Both the position numbers and the translations under genes were made by a program. This document shows positions 42,195 through 55,272 of a stretch of DNA of 64,000 bases, one piece after another. Under the pieces are notes generated by a model that was not told where the DNA came from, did no database searches, and saw only the letters and a list, made by a program, of their open reading frames with translations. Source of the stretch: Craterostigma plantagineum (Eukaryota > Streptophyta > Magnoliopsida > Lamiales > Linderniaceae). Numbering within the stretch: position 1 is the first letter of the stretch; every line of letters starts with the position of its first letter. Location of the stretch: NCBI GenBank assembly GCA_027422505.1, contig JAPQWV010000051.1:3935501-3999500 (forward strand). Reading direction: 5' to 3'.

Positions 42195-42199
42195 GTTGC

Positions 42200-43644
42200 T
42201 GATAAACGCATTTCAATGCGTTTATCGTAGTATTTATTCGGGGTATAATAAAGCGTTAGCAATCAATTTATGCATTTATTCGATATATTTACACTTGTTT
42301 TATTGTTGAAGGAGCTTAGGACGAGTTTTGGGCGAAAAGGAGCGAAAACGGAGCAAAACGGAGCAAAAAGGACGAAAACTGCTATAGGTCACGGCCGTGA
42401 CACCTAGAGCATCTGACCGTGACCCGTGACAGAGCGCAAGCTCAAAGACACTGCCAAGCGTCACGGCCGTGACGTCCAGTGCTCTAAGCCGTGACGCCCG
42501 ACAGAAAGTGATGATTGATCACTGCCCCTGGTCACGGCCGTGACAGAGCATGCACTTACCCGTGACCGATGGCAGAGAAGCCCACTGATGATGGTCACGG
42601 CCGTGACCATCGATGCACTTGGCCGTGACGCATGGTTTCGATATTTTCGCGTGGAGTCGGTGATGGTCACGGCCGTGACGGCCCATGTCCCAGGCCGTGA
42701 CCAGTGCGAAATTTCTCATAAAAGCCCAAATTCGACTCAGAAAGAGGGGACTTCGACCAGAGACAATTCCTAAACCCCTTAGAGACGAAAAATAGCACGA
42801 AAGAACGCAGAATCACGCCCCGGAGCGCAAGAGACGGAGTTCTACGCAAACGTGAACGAAGAACAAAGATCTACCCAAGCTTTCAACGATTATGAGTTCT
42901 TTTCTCCTAATTTCTATTTCCTTAGTTGTTTTTCCTTCTATTATGCGTAGCTAATTCCCTTTGTGTTTGGGATTAGATGAACGCTAGGATATTTCGTAGT
43001 TAAGACTTGTAATTATCGTGACTATGTGTTTTGACTATTTATCGTTCTATGAAACTATTTCGTTGCTTTAATATGTCTATGTGTTAAAGTAATTGTTTGG
43101 AAAATCGTTTAGGGCGACAGCTAAATAACGATTAGGCCGTTCATAGAAGATAGGATTCGAGTATAGGGCGACAGCAAATACTCGATCCTCGCCGTTAGTA
43201 ATTAATGAATTTTAGATCCCCGCGAGCGTTTAGGGCGACAGCAAACTCGCGAGCGGGCAGGAAAATTACTGCGATCTAGTCAGAATCACGTAGGAGCGAT
43301 AGTTCATTGTCTTAGTCAATAATACCTAGCGGGATTCGAATCCCGAACACTTTTTATTATCTGAAAGCTTCGTACCAGTTTAACGTGTTCTTTGAATTTC
43401 TTGTCGATTTAGAGGTAAGTGTCAGGTTAAGTCATCAAAAATCTGCGTATTTTAATTAGGCTAAATATCGAGTCGATAGGTAATTACTAGTACTTGATTT
43501 ATTCCTCGTGTTCGATACTCGTCTACTCACTCTACTGCACTACAAACGATAGGTTCACTGCCTATCGCACGTCGGTGATAGTAATTTAGTATACGTTTTA
43601 TTTTATCACTTGTCGCACTTGCACAATACACCACGTGTCGATCA
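42200..43644 (+). repeat. Left LTR
   Basis: Starts TGATAAACGCATTTCAATGC, where GATAAACGCA...TGCGTTTATC forms a hairpin at the very end, and finishes CACCACGTGTCGATCA. Five GTCACGGCCGTGAC palindromes start at 42388, 42460, 42531, 42594 and 42666. A second zone (43110-43280) repeats TAGGGCGACAGC three times. The promoter and polyadenylation sites are presumably here, but no certain TATA position is assigned. Confidence 0.95.
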
Positions 43645-43870: not shown

Positions 43871-45370
43871 ATGACCCGAAGCCATCCATCGGGTCCCATT
43901 GTTGACGCAGACCCGGATTTCGAGCGGAAGTTACGAAGGAAACTGAAGTACGATACCGAAGGAGCATCCACTAGCTCTCACGACCGTTTAGTTAGCTATT
44001 CAGAGGATAGTTCGCAGGAATCCACCCAAAACTCACGTGCAGAGACCACCGTAGATAGTCCCAATACAGAAGCGGACATGGCGGACCATCGAGTGCCCGT
44101 CCACAACGTTCCGGAGGAGGAGCCATCACTTCAAGACCTCCTCAAAAATGCCGCACTAGGCGGTACTGAATCGGCAATCGTCATCCCGCCGATAGAAAAT
44201 AACAACTTCGAACTGAAGCACTCCTGGCTTCAGATGATTTTTCAGACGGCCCAGTTCGAGGGTAATCCCGACGACGACCCTTACTCACATCTTAAGGCAT
44301 TCCTGACGGTGACAGACACCATCAAGATTAATGGGGTCCCGGGCGATGCAATCAAGTTGATGCTGTTCCCATTCTCACTCAAGTTCAGAGCAAGGGACTG
44401 GTTGGATATGTTGCCACCAAGGTCGATCACCACCTGGGAGGAGATGCGAGCCGCTTTCATCAACCATTACTTCCCACTGACGAAGGTGCTACGGCTGAAG
44501 ACGGAGATTTCCCTATTTCACCAAAAGGACTCAGAGAACCTGTACGAAGTGTGGGAGCGTTATAAGGCCTTATTAAAGAGGTGCCCGCAGCACGGGATGT
44601 CGAAGGCAGCCCAGATCAACCGATTCCATAAGGGGCTCAACGATCAGACTGTTCATATGTTAGACGGAGCCGCAGGAGGAGGACTCGTGAAGCTTAATGC
44701 CACCGACGCGTGGAATTTAATTGAGGACTATTCGAGGAACAGCTTCATGAGGGGCAATACCAGGATGAAGACACCCGGTGTATTTGGAGTTAGCCAGGAG
44801 ACAGCCACTAATGCCAAGATCGAGGCGCTTCAGCAGCAACTTGCCTCGACGAACTCCCAGTTGCAGACGGTGATTGGCGCATTACTTCCCAAGTCTGGGC
44901 AGGCGCAGCCCGTGAACGCCGTAGCCACCACCACACCAACGCAGCACACACCGTACGTGCCCTTATGCGGAATTTGCGGCGCTGCCCACGAGACCTCAGA
45001 ATGCCAACTTGGGCAGTCATTGGAGCACGTCGACTATATGGGCAACTACCAAGGTGGCCAGCGGAGTTTCCAACCTCGGGCTCATCCTAACTTGGCGTAC
45101 GGGAATCAGAATCATCAGGGCCAAGGACCGCCAGGATTTCAGCCCAGACCATCCGGATTCCAAAACGGGCCACCACGACAGTACCAAAATGCGCCCGCGG
45201 GAGGATCCGACGACATGAGGGAGATGAAGGACATGATGAAGACGCTTCTCACGAATTTCAGCAGCACCACCGCAGCCCACGAAAGCCGAATGACGAAGAT
45301 GGAGGAGTACATGGAGGCGAATGACTTGCGTGCTCAGAACACGGACGCCTCGCTCAAAAAGTTGGAGTAA
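43871..45370 (+). CDS. Gag protein of the Athila-type element
   Basis: 499 residues forming the structural particle protein. The retrotransposon gag core is visible from about residue 115 (HSWLQMIFQTAQFEGNPDDD, FRARDWLDMLPP, WEEMRAAFINHYFP, FHQKDSENLYEVWERYKALL, INRFHKGL). A zinc-knuckle-like CGICGAAHETSEC follows near residue 365, then a Gly/Gln/Pro-rich tail. The frame ends at a TAA at 45368, but conserved linker text (QMGQMAKQL) continues in the same frame beyond it, which suggests that this stop interrupts what is usually one gag-pol reading frame. Confidence 0.9.
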   Translation: MTRSHPSGPIVDADPDFERKLRRKLKYDTEGASTSSHDRLVSYSEDSSQESTQNSRAETTVDSPNTEADMADHRVPVHNVPEEEPSLQDLLKNAALGGTESAIVIPPIENNNFELKHSWLQMIFQTAQFEGNPDDDPYSHLKAFLTVTDTIKINGVPGDAIKLMLFPFSLKFRARDWLDMLPPRSITTWEEMRAAFINHYFPLTKVLRLKTEISLFHQKDSENLYEVWERYKALLKRCPQHGMSKAAQINRFHKGLNDQTVHMLDGAAGGGLVKLNATDAWNLIEDYSRNSFMRGNTRMKTPGVFGVSQETATNAKIEALQQQLASTNSQLQTVIGALLPKSGQAQPVNAVATTTPTQHTPYVPLCGICGAAHETSECQLGQSLEHVDYMGNYQGGQRSFQPRAHPNLAYGNQNHQGQGPPGFQPRPSGFQNGPPRQYQNAPAGGSDDMREMKDMMKTLLTNFSSTTAAHESRMTKMEEYMEANDLRAQNTDASLKKLE

Positions 45371-45462
45371 CAGATGGGCCAGATGGCGAAGCAGTTGGCG
45401 GGGCGTACTAAGGATCGCTCCCAAGCTATACCGAGCCAAATCCAAAGGAGTACTGCAAGGCG

Positions 45463-48400
45463 GTGACATTGAGGAATGGACGGGAATTGCAAGAAGTGCG
45501 CGCCAAGAAGAAGGCGAAGGAGAGTGCCAGCTTTGAGAGCCACGACGAGCCCGATGTGGAGGAAATCGGAGGCGACAATGTCGAGAAGGCCGAAGCTGAG
45601 AAGGAGAAAGTCGAGCCCGAGAAGGAAAAGGTGACGGAGATCCAGCGACCACCGGTGAAGCCTTACCAGCCGAAGATCCCGTACCCGGCTCGACTGAAAA
45701 AGGACAAGAACGAAGCACAGTTTGGTAAATTTATGGGCATGTGTAAGGAATTGCATATTAACTTACCTTTTGTTGAAGCCATTACGCAGATGCCTAGCTT
45801 CGCCAAGTTCTTGAAGGATTTGTTGACGAACAGAAGGAAGCTCGAACACGTCTCCACCGTCTGCCTGCGAGGGGAATGTTCGGCGATTCTCCAGAGCAAG
45901 ATTCCTAAGAAGCTGAAGGATCCAGGGAGTTTTACTATTCCCTGTCTTATAGGAGATTTAGTAATCGAACGTGCGTTAGCTGACTTAGGCGCTAGTATTA
46001 ATCTCATGCCGTATTCTATGTTTAAGCGTCTAGGTCTAGGTGAACCGCGACCCACTAGGATGAGCCTCCAATTAGCTGATAGATCGTTAAAGTACCCTCG
46101 AGGTGTTATCGAGGATGTCCTAGTTAAGGTCGATAAGTTCGTGATTCCCGCAGATTTCGTTATCTTAGATATGGAAGAAGATGAAAATGTTCCCTTAATG
46201 TTAGGAAGACCTTTCTTAGCCACGGGGGAGACCATGATAGACGTTAGGAGTGGGACGTTAACCTTTACGGTAGATGGGGAAAAGGTTACCTTTGATATGG
46301 CCGACTCAATGAAAAAGAGTAGCGAGCAGGACGATAAATGTTATTTCTTAGACGTATTTGAGCACGATTTCCTCTTTTCCGTGCAAGGTCTGTCACAGGT
46401 CGGCGATCACGACATACACACGCTTATGGCAATCGACGAGTGTGGGGAGGAAGTCGACAAGCCTATTGTAGCCATCGATGAAAGCAGCGAAGAGGACAAG
46501 GAGAAGAGCTCAGTTGAGGAACCGCCGGTCCTAGAATTGAAGCCGCTGCCCGACCACCTCGAGTACGCGTTTCTGAACAATAATGGAGGGCTGCCGGTCA
46601 TAATCTCCTCAAACCTCGATGATGGGCAGAAGGGTCAGCTTTTAGAAGTGTTGAAGACGCACAAGAAGGCCCTGGCATGGAAGATATCCGACATAAGGGG
46701 TATCAATCCCAGCTACTGCACACACAAGATCCTCATGGAGGATGACTTCAAGCCGGTCGCTCAACGTCAAAGGCGCCTCAATCCCAACATGAAGGACGTT
46801 GTCAAGAAGGAAGTAATCAAGCTGCTAGACGCGGGGATGATCTATCCCATCTCAGACAGCGCATGGGTCAGCCCGGTCCAAGTAGTCCCAAAGAAGGGAG
46901 GCATGACGGTCGTCACCAACGACAAGAGCGAACTGATCCCGACGAGAACCGTGACCGGATGGCGCGTCTGTATAGACTACAGGAAGTTGAATGATGCGAC
47001 GAGAAAAGATCATTTTCCCCTACCTTTTATTGATCAGATGTTAGAAAAATTAGCAGGTCACTCATTCTATTGTTTCCTTGATGGTTTGTCAGGTTATCTA
47101 CAGATTCCTATAGCACCCGAGGACCAGGAGAAGACGACGTTTACGTGCCCGTTCGGAACGTTCGCGTACCGAAGGATGCCATTCGGATTATGCAATGCCC
47201 CAGCCACCTTCCAGCGATGCATGATGGCCATATTCGACGAACTGGTAGGTGAGGTAATGGAGGTATTTATGGACGACTTCTCTGTTTTCGGTTCCTCGTT
47301 TGATGCATGTTTATCGAATCTGAAGCTCGTGCTCGCACGATGCGAGGAAACGAATTTGGCACTTAATTGGGAAAAGTGCCATTTCATGGTTCGAGAGGGT
47401 ATAGTTCTCGGTCATAAGATTTCTTCTAAAGGAATCGAAGTGGACCGAGCTAAGTTAGAGACGATAGAAAAATTGCCTGTTCCCTCGAACGTGAAGTCGA
47501 TTAGAAGTTTTCTAGGACATGCGGGATTTTATCGTAGATTTATCAAAGACTTTTCTAAAATCGCACGTCCTATGTCTAGATTGTTAGAGAAAGATGCCCC
47601 GTTTGATTTCAATGACGAATGCCTGCATGCTTTCAATTTACTTAAGGAGAGACTTATCGCAGCACCTATTATGGTTGCCCCCGACTGGGGGCTGCCCTTT
47701 GAACTAATGTGCGATGCTAGTGACTATGCAGTTGGGGCCGTGCTAGGGCAGCGTAAGGACAACCACTTCAGGCCGATCTATTACGCGAGTAAGACGTTAG
47801 ACGCAGCCCAGGCCAATTACACGACCACCGAGAAGGAGCTGTTGGCCGTCGTGTTTGCTTTCGACAAGTTCAGGTCATATTTAATCCTGTCTAAAGTTAT
47901 TGTTTTTACTGACCACTCTGCTCTCAAGTACTTGTTAGCAAAGCCCGACGCAAAGCCAAGACTAATTCGGTGGATCCTGCTACTGCAAGAGTTTGATATA
48001 GAGATCCGCGACAAGAAGGGTGCGGAGAACCTAGCGGCAGATCACCTCTCCCGACTAGAGGAGTCCGAGATATACAATAAGAACGAGAGGGCGATACACG
48101 ATCGGTTCCCAGACGAGCACCTCTACTCGATACACGTAGTAAGTGACGACACCCCTTGGTTTGCAGATTACGCTAACTACCTTGTTGCGAGGATCCTACC
48201 AAAGGAATACACGAGTCAGCAAAAGAAGAAATTCTTTTCTGATTTGAGGTACTACTTTTGGGAAGACCCGTATCTTTTCAGGCGATGTGCAGACCAGGTA
48301 ATACGGCGATGCGTGGCTGCCCCGGAATCGACGCAGATCCTTAGACATTGCCACAATGGACCGACCGGAGGGCATTATGCAGCAAATCGTACCGCTCAGA

Positions 48401-49443
48401 AGGTGTTGGAGAGCGGATTCTACTGGCCCACGATCTTCAAGGACGCGCAAAGGTACGTTGACACTTGTGATCAGTGTCAGCGCGCAGGTAATATTTCTAA
48501 ACGCGACGAAATGCCCCAGAATTTCATCTTAGTTTGCGAAATTTTCGATGTATGGGGTATTGATTTCATGGGTCCATTTCCTAGCTCATACAATAATAAG
48601 TACATCCTAGTTGCGGTCGATTATGTTTCTAAGTGGGCCGAGGCGCAAGCCTTACCCACGAATGATGCTAGGGTAGTCGTTAGATTTTTGCGAGCATTGT
48701 TTTCACGTTTTGGGGCACCTAAATGCATTATTAGTGATAGAGGCACTCACTTTTGTAACACCCAGTTTTCACGCACGTTAAAACGTTACGGTGTTAAGCA
48801 TAGCCTATCCACCCCATATCATCCCCAAGCTAGTGGTCAAGTCGAAGTAGTGAACCGTGAGTTGAAACGTATTCTAGAGAAAACCATAGAGGGGAACCGT
48901 AGGGAGTGGGCAAATAAGTTAAATGATGCACTTTGGGCATATAGGACTGCATATAAGACCCCCATAGGCACTACACCATATAGATTAGTCTATGGAAAAG
49001 CATGTCATCTTCCCGTAGAAATAGAGCATAAGGCATATTGGGCCATCAAGTCCTTGGATCTTGATTTGGGGAACGCCGGCGGAAAGCGGCAACTCCAAAT
49101 CAACGAGTTAGACGAGTGGCGTTTATCGGCCTACGATAACGCTCGCATGTACAAGGAACGTTCTAAGGCCTATCATGATAAGAAAATTAGGCAAAGGCGA
49201 GAGTTTCAGGAAGGAGATCAAGTCCTTCTTTTTAACTCTCGACTTAGGCTCTTTCCTGGCAAGCTTAGATCACGCTGGTCAGGACCGTTCACTGTTACCC
49301 GTGTTTTCCCTTATGGTACTGTTGAGATTTCAGGAATGGAGCATGGTACTTTTAAGGTGAACGGCCATAGGTTGAAGCATTATCTCGCAGGCGAGGAAGA
49401 CGCTACCGAGAGGGAAGTACTGTACTTGGACTTCCAAACGTAA
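45463..49443 (+). CDS. Pol polyprotein (protease, RT, RNase H, integrase)
   Basis: 1326 codons open from about 45415 in a different frame from gag. The first listed codon is GTG within the conserved VTLRNGR motif, so no true ATG start is implied. Domains in order: aspartic protease with [13 protein letters not shown] (about residue 170) and LGRPFLATG; reverse transcriptase with [16 protein letters not shown] and the active-site FMDDF (about 600); RNase H with [15 protein letters not shown] (about 748); integrase zinc finger ([11 protein letters not shown]...CDQCQ, about 962-1002); and the integrase core with [15 protein letters not shown] and the Glu in [13 protein letters not shown]. All catalytic motifs look intact. 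The DLGA form of the protease motif is normal for this clade. Confidence 0.92.
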
Positions 49444-49557
49444 GCGAGCAAAAACGACGTCCGGCTAAAGACGGTAAAGTAAGCGCTTCTTGGGAGGCAA
49501 CCCAGGTATTTTTATTTATGTCTTAGCTTTAAAACAAAAAAAAAAATATAGGGGGCG

Positions 49558-49945
49558 GTCACGGCTAACTGCTTAAGCAGTCACGGCCGTGACGCGCATA
49601 TCTATGCACACTGCCTGATGTCACGGCCAGAGGCTTAAGCCATCACGGCCGTGACCCAAAGTAAAATCTCATCGAGACTTCTGCCCAATGTCACGGCCAA
49701 CTGCTTAAGCAGTCACGGCCGTGACCAAGATCAGAGGCACTCACTGCCCCTTGTCACGGCCTACTGCTTAAGCAGTCACGGCCGTGACACCTCCGGAAAG
49801 AAAAAAAAATAATAATAATAAATAAAAAAAAAAATTGGTCGATTGGGTCACGGCCAGTGACGAGTACGTCACGGCCGTGAGAACCGGCAGAGGAGCCTAC
49901 TGCCTGCTGTCACGGCCAAGACCCTTAAGGGTCACGGCCGTGACT
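49558..49945 (+). repeat. Tandem hairpin array after pol
   Basis: Six units of a half site GTCACGGCC followed by a spacer and then GTCACGGCCGTGAC, full sites starting at about 49580, 49643 (first base changed), 49712, 49775, 49868 (last base changed) and 49931. The spacer of most units is itself a CTTAAG-centred palindrome: ACTGCTTAAGCAGT in three, GGCTTAAGCC in one, ACCCTTAAGGGT in one. Each unit can fold as a single hairpin of about 35 nt. Spacer words such as CACTGCCCC are shared with the LTR array, showing common descent. Confidence 0.9.
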
Positions 49946-50750
49946 GATGCGGATTTAAGGGTAAAAATGCCCTTTTTCCCTTATTTTTTCCCCTCTTCTC
50001 CTCTTTCTTCTTCCCTTCCCTCACGCGATTTTCACCCTAAAACACCAAAAATCCCCCCGCCATCACCACCCAAACTCGCCTCATCCCTCCCAAATCCGGT
50101 GATCCACAGCCTAAACCTCACAATTCGTCCCCCCTATCATCAAAAATTCGAAGGTATGACTTTCTTACTCTTTGCACTATTTCGTCCAAGTTGTGGGGAA
50201 TCTCGTCAAAATTGTTGATCTTTTGGGTAGGATCGTTCATTACATGATATATGTACTATTGGGTATGCTTAATTCGTTGAAATTAGGTGCGATTTTTCGA
50301 ATTTTGTGACGAACCCTAATTTTCAAATTGGGGCTTTTTTCGAATTGGGGTTTAATTGTTGTTTCTATTGCCCTTTATTGATAGATATATGCTATGAACG
50401 CTTTGGGTATGCTTGATTACATGAATTCGTGGTTCAATTTTGGGGATTTTTACGATGAACCCTAATTTCAAAATTGGGGATTTCTGAAATTATTTGGTAC
50501 ATTCCGTTGCGTTGATGCTATTAACTAGCCTCGATTCATAATATGATATATTTGGGTGCATTAGCATGTTCAATTTTGGATTTGAATGAAGTGATTTGTT
50601 TGCACGCCACGTGTTCGATAAAATGCCAATTTGAGCCTTTCATGTGTTTGCATATGCGAGTTACTACGTCGTCGCTAATTTGGTCGAGTCGAGCTGCTTT
50701 GAATTTAATTGCGGTATTCTCGTTGCGCTCACACTTTGCTTCTAGGTACT

Positions 50751-53819: not shown

Positions 53820-55267
53820 TGATAAACGCATTTCAATGCGTTTATCGTAGTATTTATTCGGGGTATAATAAAGCGTTAGCAATCAATTTATGCATTTATT
53901 CGATATATTTACACTTGTTTTATTGTTGAAGGAGCGTAGGACGAGTTTCGGGCGAAAAGGAGCGAAAACGGAGCAAAACGGAGCAAAAAGGACGAAAACT
54001 GCTATAGGTCACGGCCGTGTACACCTAGAGCATCTGACCGTGACCCGTGACAGAGCGCAAGCTCAAAGACACTGCCAAGCGTCACGGCCGTGACGTCCAG
54101 TGCTCTAAGCCGTGACGCCCGACAGAAAGTGATGATTGATCACTGCCATCCTGGTCACGGCCGTGACAGAGCATGCACTTACCCGTGACCGATGGCAGAG
54201 AAGCCCACTGATGATGGTCACGGCCGTGACCATCGATGCACTTGGCCGTGACGCATGGTTTCGATATTTTCGCGTGGAGTCGGTGATGGTCACGGCCGTG
54301 ACGGCCCATGTCCCAGGCCGTGACCAGTGCGAAATTTCTCATAAAAGCCCAAATTCGACTCAGAAAGAGGGGACTTCGACCAGAGACAATTCCTAAACCC
54401 CTTAGAGACGAAAAATAGCACGAAAGAACGCAGAATCACGCCCCGGAGCGCAAGAGACGGAGTTCTACGCAAACGTGAACGAAGAACAAAGATCTACCCA
54501 AGCTTTCAACGATTATGAGTTCTTTTCTCCTAATTTCTATTTCCTTAGTTGTTTTTCCTTCTATTATGCGTAGCTAATTCCCTTTGTGTTTGGGATTAGA
54601 TGAACGCTAGGATATTTCGTAGTTAAGACTTGTAATTATCGTGACTATGTGTTTTGACTATTTATCGTTCTATGAAACTATTTCGTTGCTTTAATATGTC
54701 TATGTGTTAAAGTAATTGTTTGGAAAATCGTTTAGGGCGACAGCTAAATAACGATTAGGCCGTTCATAGAAGATAGGATTCGAGTATAGGGCGACAGCAA
54801 ATACTCGATCCTCGCCGTTAGTAATTAATGAATATTAGATCCCCGCGAGCGTTTAGGGCGACAGCAAACTCGCGAGCGGGCAGGAAAATTACTGCGATCT
54901 AGTCAGAATCACGTAGGAGCGATAGTTCATTGTCTTAGTCAATAATACCTAGCGGGATTCGAATCCCGAGCACATTTTATTATCTGAAAGCTTCGTACCA
55001 GTTTAACGTGTTCTTTGAATTTCTTGTCGATTTAGAGGTAAGTGTCAGGTTAAGTCATCAAAAATCTGCGTATTTTAATTAGGCTAAATATCGAGTCGAT
55101 AGGTAATTACTAGTACTTGATTTATTCCTCGTGTTCGATACTCGTCTACTCACTCTACTGCACTACAAACGATAGGTTCACTGCCTATCGCACGTCGGTG
55201 ATAGTAATTTAGTATACGTTTTATTTTATCACTTGTCGCACTTGCACAATACACCACGTGTCGATCA
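53820..55267 (+). repeat. Right LTR
   Basis: Nearly identical to the left LTR, with the same hairpin end and palindrome array (intact sites at 54081, 54154, 54217 and 54289; the first, at about 54008, is broken by an inserted T). Ends GTGTCGATCA before the target duplication GTTGC. Confidence 0.95.
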
Positions 55268-55272
55268 GTTGC

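Follow-up and report, generated by a model that had tools for sequence, protein, structure and literature searches.

In Sireviruses, which are Ty1/copia retrotransposons, palindromic RM boxes with a CGG-CCG core are clustered in the long terminal repeat (LTR) shortly 5' of the TATA box, and extra copies lie 5' of the env-like gene (Bousios et al. 2010, PMC2829016). By the same account, RM-bearing Sireviruses without an env-like gene have no internal copies, and an internal env promoter is supported but not conclusively identified (PMC2829016). In the usual view, env-like genes are transcribed from the 5' LTR promoter (PMC7264820), and the expression route and role of the third gene in plant env-class retrotransposons is the open question addressed here. 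The env-class elements Athila, Calypso, and BAGY-2 consist of gag, pol, and a third open reading frame (ORF), for which splicing has been predicted or reported (PMC1142308); in the texts returned by our literature searches, we found neither palindrome arrays nor a sense-oriented internal promoter reported for them. Grande carries an extra gene with its own promoter, gene23, between pol and the 3' LTR (Gomez-Orte et al. 2013, cited in PMC7264820 and PMC11963269), and in VANDAL DNA transposons, element-specific arrays of short motifs lie in noncoding DNA beside the element genes (Hosaka et al. 2017, PMC5735166). Here, we analyze a window of 64,000 nt from Craterostigma plantagineum (GCA_027422505.1, contig JAPQWV010000051.1, positions 3,935,501-3,999,500 of the forward strand), which contains an Athila-type LTR retrotransposon, with both LTRs present and an array of paired palindromic sites between pol and its third ORF (ORF3).

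Each unit of this internal array joins a half site, GTCACGGCC, to a full palindrome, GTCACGGCCGTGAC, across a short spacer (Table 1). An earlier note on this DNA had placed the six units correctly, at 49558-49945 as compared with 49558-49944 here, and had known of no described element with such an arrangement, although Sireviruses have one (PMC2829016). Two further arrays of the same site are found in the U3 regions of the LTRs, where the unit order is the mirror of the internal one (full palindrome GTCACGGCCGTGAC, spacer, half site GGCCGTGAC), that is, the internal array is flipped with respect to the LTR array. With up to two mismatches allowed, GTCACGGCCGTGAC occurs 17 times in the window versus 0.06 expected (0 of 100 shuffles reach 17), seven times inside 49558-49944 and ten times in the two LTRs; outside the element, the window has just three single half-site heptamers. 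Across the five units of the 5' LTR array, the site letters are 100% identical, while the spacers are 42% identical (0.415 versus 0.254 when shuffled). In the 5' LTR and internal arrays taken together (11 units), half sites of the same orientation are separated by 22 bp in all units but one, where the distance is 21 bp. The occurrence of the same sites 5' of the LTR promoter and of ORF3 suggests that one DNA-binding factor may run both the LTR promoter and a promoter belonging to ORF3. Most of the array's meaning lies in four features that the earlier note overlooked: the array copies in the LTRs, the flip of the internal one, the TATA spacing, and the intron.

To place these sites in context, pairs were counted over the 1.71-Gb host genome with the reversed pattern as the control. 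A full palindrome and a half site are found 19,947 times with a 12-15 nt spacer and 20,373 times with a 0-30 nt spacer, compared with 0 for the reversed pattern; 97.9% of the pairs within 0-30 nt thus have the 12-15 nt spacer, corresponding to about two helical turns between half sites. We sampled 40 stretches 3' of integrase matches from 125 places other than the window (the 20 top-ranked ones and 20 spread over the rest) and scanned them for the flipped unit order only. All 40 have the internal array in this order, with 2 to 7 units each, so that the array is not confined to the present copy, an outcome that the earlier note had named as refuting its view. When the window and the copies L009, L011, L021, L022, and L023 are added (46 copies), the half-to-full distance is 21 or 22 bp in 240 of 241 internal units (17-27 bp allowed, ties resolved towards 22), and the unit number ranges from 2 to 8, the highest being that of L023. 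Array units are preserved one by one in copies that are 83-87% identical. The five added copies were found via their palindromes and are therefore not independent evidence for the presence of the array; their orientation can be judged from LTR units or from gag, pol, or ORF3, and the internal units are flipped in 5/5. ORF3 itself is observed behind the internal array in the window and in the same five copies, and in L021, L022, and L023 the array is still upstream of third-ORF pieces only 48-68% identical to the window ORF3. In two short elements, L017 and L024 (probably one family), LTR arrays flank gag and the start of pol, with no detectable ORF3 and no internal array; with these coding parts retained, both may rely on full-length relatives. 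A possible third is L025, where two arrays stand 7.6 kb from each other and neither gag, pol, nor ORF3 gives a match. Among these two or three copies, there is no short element lacking ORF3 that has an internal array, and in the interior of L024 just two half sites stand alone, each having no more than one mismatch.

The distance between the array and the TATA box recurs at both places. A restrictive expression matched 16 distinct LTRs, the only ones counted, and in 14 of them the TATA box starts 15 nt past the last half site, 3 of these 14 reading TATTAAAA; of the remaining two, L020 has its box at 17 nt and the window has a degenerate one. On the 3' side of the internal array, the first TATAWA is found at 15, 16, 17, and 18 nt in 9, 8, 3, and 1 copies, respectively, i.e., in 21 of the 46 copies, versus 3.4% in shuffled sequence. 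The half site nearest the TATA box, GGCCGTGAC, has the same orientation towards it in the LTR and in the candidate internal promoter. Further downstream, the segment 25-75 nt past the last internal site is on average 91% pyrimidine (45 copies, minimum 56%), against an element mean of 49% and a 95th percentile of 64%. On the opposite side of the internal array, antisense TATAWA is found in just 7 of the 46 copies and at scattered positions, leaving an antisense promoter unsupported. In all 46 copies, 8-38 consecutive A stand no more than 60 nt 5' of the first internal unit; such a run could exclude nucleosomes or be the relic of a captured polyadenylated cDNA. In L079 and L080, inverted arms flank the internal TATA box just past the last internal site (AATCACGT-TATAAAA-ACGTGATT), and the core promoter could thus form a dyad too.

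Between the leader and ORF3, a predicted intron in the 5' untranslated region (UTR) ends just before the start codon. Splice signals were surveyed in 22 regions, in 7 of which the array end is out of view. Where it is in view, a donor AAG/GTATG or GAG/GTATG (the slash marks the exon end) lies 202-228 nt past the last site in 12 of 15 regions, the exceptions being L075, L081, and L021, the last of which has no intron. TAG or CAG directly precedes the start-codon context in 17 of the 22 regions; it is not shown by L081, L082, L083, and L088, and L021 is intron-less there. The intron is 592-594 nt long in four copies and 438 nt in L023, with the other surveyed copies within about 15 nt of 592-594. 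In L021, the leader passes straight into GTACTATGGG, and the intron is missing exactly. The 205 nt before this junction score 45, 53.5, 34, 44, and 50.5 against the leaders of five intron-bearing copies and 9-10 against the intron ends of the same copies; the maximum from 200 shuffles per leader is 31.5, and the match to the window leader (34) is the weakest. Given this exact loss, an RNA must have been spliced at the predicted sites and later reverse transcribed; since gag and the beginning of pol are also present in L021, it was probably the long RNA.

The conserved sites, the locked two-turn spacing, and the TATA distance shared by both locations point to an activator that binds DNA at two promoters, and on these sequence comparisons we consider it likely that one kind of activating array serves the promoter of the LTR as well as an internal one for ORF3. 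In such a two-promoter arrangement, the U3 array would drive the genomic RNA, and its flipped copy between pol and ORF3 would drive a transcript of its own for ORF3. The palindrome GTCACGGCCGTGAC would be occupied by a DNA-binding protein, probably dimeric, while a further subunit or a second dimer would contact the lone half site two helical turns off. A TATA box about 15 nt past the last GGCCGTGAC would complete both promoters, and genomic RNA and ORF3 mRNA would be co-regulated. The binder may be a host transcription factor or an element protein; the constant site across diverged ORF3 sequences speaks for a host factor. We infer the internal RNA start, the protein binding, and the nature of the binder from features that can be read in the DNA itself, namely the two array sets with their locked spacing and flip, the TATA spacing, the leader, the intron with its one loss, the selection on ORF3, and the relatives.

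Several points weigh against two promoters. In 25 of the 46 copies, the window's own included, there is no TATAWA within 45 nt of the last internal site. ORF3 could instead be expressed via splicing of the LTR transcript, and what the sequence of L021, a single copy, proves is splicing, not an internal start. Despite their divergence, the LTR spacers resemble one another more than shuffles do, and common descent may thus account for some of the fixed spacing; the copies are also related, so the counts are not independent. The short elements number only two or three, and a very divergent ORF3 could be missed in them. Finally, covarying spacer arms, considered below, are unexplained by a fixed protein site.

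As in the Sireviruses, the palindromes of the present element have a CGG-CCG core and occur in the LTR 5' of its TATA box as well as 5' of ORF3. Compared with the Sireviruses as described in PMC2829016, the present element combines a full palindrome with a half site at 21-22 bp, has a flipped internal array, a matched TATA spacing at both places, and a 5'-UTR intron, and its arrays are not CpG islands: CpG observed/expected is 0.95 in the internal array and 1.01 in the LTR array, near the 1.06 of the whole window, which rules out a CpG-island reading. As the element belongs to Ty3/gypsy, a superfamily different from the one in which such motifs were described (Ty1/copia), the Sirevirus-like arrangement suggests, by analogy, convergence. 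Grande gene23 is antisense, whereas ORF3 is sense, and the passages on Grande in PMC7264820 and PMC11963269 mention no palindromic array. What the present locus would add is a second, sense-oriented promoter laid out in the sequence, with LTR-like sites and TATA spacing, and a paired site for a candidate binder that recurs about 20,000 times in the genome.

The feature stressed in the earlier note was the symmetry of the spacers. As it had observed, most of them are CTTAAG-centered (5 of 6 units; unit 5 has GTGACG-AGTA-CGTCAC). Its further claim, paired change in the CTTAAG arms, holds within the window clade but is not general. For the distinct internal spacers (n = 80), the mean best arm is 4.51 versus 3.72 (standard deviation 0.10) for left/right chimeras, 0 of 1000 of which reach 4.51. 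In class A spacers, the inner pairs are Watson-Crick at a frequency of 0.698 versus 0.515 when shuffled (0 of 2000 reach it), and a register check gives 0.68 for the true register and 0.08-0.45 after a shift of 1-3. Complementarity is kept by the arms ACTGC/GCAGT, ACGGC/GCCGT, ACGCC/GGCGT, ACGAC/GTCGT, GACCC/GGGTC, and GACCT/AGGTC; 42 distinct spacers include 15 with G-C and 14 with T-A at pair 4-13, and 26 with G-C and 5 with C-G at pair 5-12. Broken pairs are frequent in these related copies, the three inner pairs being Watson-Crick in 29, 31, and 28 of the 42 spacers, and in class B spacers (unit 6) the inner pairs are within chance (229 of 2000 shuffles reach the observed value) and the center is weakly beyond it (29 of 2000). 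The 36 distinct LTR-type spacers, hand-typed from the genome list with those judged internal by eye omitted, show no symmetry (best arm 2.94 versus 3.05 for chimeras), and all 29 LTR spacers of 13 nt have an invariant TG at positions 7-8. Because the LTR spacers are asymmetric and the divergent relatives L021, L022, and L023 are mostly without CTTAAG arms, we reject the dyads as the defining feature of the array; judged across these copies, they are a secondary, clade-specific feature. Their covariation is possibly caused by a hairpin, a cruciform, or template-switch repair that perfects quasi-palindromes.

Of the three options offered in the earlier note, a protein-binding array, an RNA structure, and a methylation target, we favor the first. 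If RNA structure were the target of selection, each 36-nt unit would form a hairpin in the genomic RNA, with an outer stem GTCACGGCC/GGCCGTGAC, an inner stem of spacer arms, and a small loop, controlling splicing, export, or packaging. Folding against shuffled controls, which the earlier note had proposed, does give a strong signal for the internal array (DNA z -11.75, RNA z -13.79; RNA z -5.91 for the LTR array), but any set of palindromes would give such values. The covarying arms of the window clade, the tolerance of unpaired loops such as ATAA, ATT, and ATA, and the real intron 3' of the array would suit a hairpin, whereas the pairing of LTR spacers is no better than chance, the LTR arrays lie 5' of the TATA box and are thus absent from the 5' part of the RNA, conservation covers the site letters beyond pairing, and G-T mismatches show no clear excess over A-C (8 versus 5 at class A inner pairs). 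We therefore regard hairpin selection as improbable. It also seems quite unlikely that ORF3 is made solely by splicing of LTR-driven RNA, with the internal array as a silencing target or a relic. The acceptor before ORF3 is good, and the window LTR contains a consensus-like donor, AGGTAAGT, near 43413. However, these exact letters are missing in 15 other LTR matches representing 9 distinct LTRs (weaker donors were not looked for), so that this donor was rejected as the source of ORF3 mRNA. Moreover, 12 of the 15 testable regions have a separate donor shortly 3' of the array, and splicing alone leaves the TATA spacing and the conservation of the array unexplained. The null explanation, functionless unstable tandem repeats, draws on the variable unit number (2 to 8 depending on the copy) and on the Retand lineage, which often has tandem repeats between pol and the 3' LTR (PMC11963269). 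We find it very hard to credit, as the spacing is locked though the spacers have diverged, the LTR and internal arrays share an identical site, units are preserved one by one at 83-87% identity, and the array is present in relatives with a much diverged third ORF.

A role of the ORF3 product at the array would be compatible with two promoters. ORF3 is under purifying selection, as estimated from ratios of nonsynonymous to synonymous substitution (dN/dS) of 0.24, 0.21, and 0.21 for three pairs (dS 0.26-0.64). Hydropathy reveals no transmembrane stretch (maximum Kyte-Doolittle 0.73), no strongly basic octamer was found, and the sole confident part of a poor single-sequence model (mean predicted local distance difference test, pLDDT, 44.1; predicted template modeling score, pTM, 0.25) is a long C-terminal helix, residues 357-416. 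Neither Pfam nor a PDB sequence search (best E 0.41) yielded a DNA-binding domain, and the VANC domains DUF1985/DUF287 gave no Pfam match at E up to 1. In ORF3 protein searches, none of the 7994 and 7992 candidates scored passed, an outcome that we attribute to the word look-up being limited, because the family is recognized by Pfam. By analogy with VANC of VANDAL, the ORF3 product might bind the sites and remove silencing marks or activate both promoters in trans, so that the arrays would be anti-silencing targets, a reading that we consider rather unlikely. The present arrays, like the tandem repeats targeted by VANC (PMC5735166), are tandem motifs in noncoding parts of their own element, and a nuclear signal is predicted in a sunflower Athila protein that shares its Pfam families with ORF3 (PMC11728184). 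The selection on ORF3, its lack of a transmembrane stretch, its C-terminal helix, and the absence of the internal array from short elements without detectable ORF3 are all in line with such a function. Against it, no DNA-binding domain or strongly basic stretch was found, and elements without ORF3 keep their LTR arrays, though service in trans is possible. The site is also constant while ORF3 pieces are 48-68% identical, whereas VANDAL motifs, the targets of VANC, differ between related families (PMC5735166). VANDAL is a DNA transposon with a proven binding protein (PMC5735166); the present element is a retrotransposon with a putative binder. The action of Athila ORFs on methylation was left open in a 2026 paper (PMC12844716). 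In the fullest version of this circuit, which we put forward tentatively as a minority possibility, ORF3 would be an array-binding activator or anti-silencer made from its own promoter, opening the LTR and its own gene and able to serve short relatives in which LTR arrays alone are kept. If ORF3 did bind the array, the same two-promoter circuit would have arisen by convergence in Athila and in the Sireviruses, two env-class lineages that are unrelated, and plant 'env-like' genes would be regulators, not envelope genes.

The remaining anatomy agrees with the classification of the element. The two LTRs are 99.4% identical (self-BLAST). Along the pol ORF, the Pfam domain order is protease, reverse transcriptase (RT), RNase H, and integrase, which fits the Athila lineage of Ty3/gypsy; integrase comes after RT and RNase H, unlike the gene order of Ty1/copia, to which the Sirevirus genus belongs. 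ORF3 matches PF03078 (ATHILA ORF-1) with 31.5 bits at a cut-off of 20.2, as is characteristic of the Athila lineage, and the primer site is presumably of the Athila kind. The 120 best pol matches are nearly all plant proteins, labeled merely reverse transcriptase, hypothetical, or uncharacterized. No relatives outside the plant genome were found in viral contigs (pol, unit pattern) or in genome contigs (pol), as expected for a plant element.

Table 1 Features of the Athila-type element and of its paired-site arrays in the window.
Feature	Coordinates	Strand	Basis or remark
5' LTR, TG..CA	42200..43644	+	self-BLAST, sequence
3' LTR	53820..55267	+	self-BLAST, sequence
Target site duplication GTTGC, 5 bp	42195-42199 and 55268-55272		sequence
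5' LTR array, five units, U3: full palindrome followed by half site; half sites of equal orientation at 22 bp	42388..42701	+	
TATA-like box, degenerate CATAAAA (CTATAAAAA in most relatives), 15 nt past last half site	42717..42723	+	LTR comparison
gag ORF (Retrotrans_gag)	43871..45370	+	ORF list, Pfam
pol ORF: protease, RT, RNase H, integrase	45412..49443	+	ORF list, Pfam; frame differs from gag
A-rich tract 5' of internal array	49531..49548	+	
Internal array, six units, each of half site GTCACGGCC, spacer of 12-13 nt, and full palindrome GTCACGGCCGTGAC	49558..49944	+	sits between pol and ORF3
Unit 1, spacer dyad ACTGCTTAAGCAGT	49558..49593	+	
Unit 2, spacer dyad GGCTTAAGCC	49620..49655	+	
Unit 3, spacer dyad ACTGCTTAAGCAGT	49690..49725	+	
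Unit 4, spacer dyad ACTGCTTAAGCAGT	49753..49788	+	
A/T-rich tract separating units 4 and 5	49797..49838	+	
Unit 5, 21-bp spacing, GTGACG-AGTA-CGTCAC in place of CTTAAG-centered spacer	49847..49881	+	
Unit 6, spacer dyad GACCCTTAAGGGTC	49909..49944	+	
TAAAAA, 17 nt past last site, degenerate counterpart of internal TATAWA	49962..49967	+	
Noncoding leader, inferred first exon of ORF3 transcript, first part strongly pyrimidine-rich	49969..50153	+	start guessed
Predicted 5'-UTR intron, AAG/GTATGA ... CTTCTAG/, 592 nt, AT-rich	50154..50745	+	ends just before ORF3 start codon
ORF3, 430 aa, ATHILA ORF-1 family PF03078	50751..52043	+	ORF list, Pfam, hydropathy
3' LTR array, five units, U3; first palindrome with one-base insertion	54008..54324	+	

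Further sequence features were noted in and around the element. A-tracts with a period of about 10 bp lie directly 5' of each LTR array (window 42332-42378 and 53952-53998), and this phasing makes bent DNA possible. A second perfect palindrome in the LTR, CGGGATTCGAATCCCG, is located 3' of the TATA-like box (window 43330-43345 and 54953-54968), and two related long palindromes, TTACGAGTTATAACTCGTAA and TTTACGAGTTATATAACTCGTAAA, are found outside the element, at 1025-1044 and 1110-1133 of the window. Elsewhere in the genome, at L008 (G000:C1:1009090-1022260), array units recur every ~2189 bp in a tandem repeat that joins a piece of the LTR array to a gag fragment, possibly a satellite emerging from the Athila-type retrotransposon.
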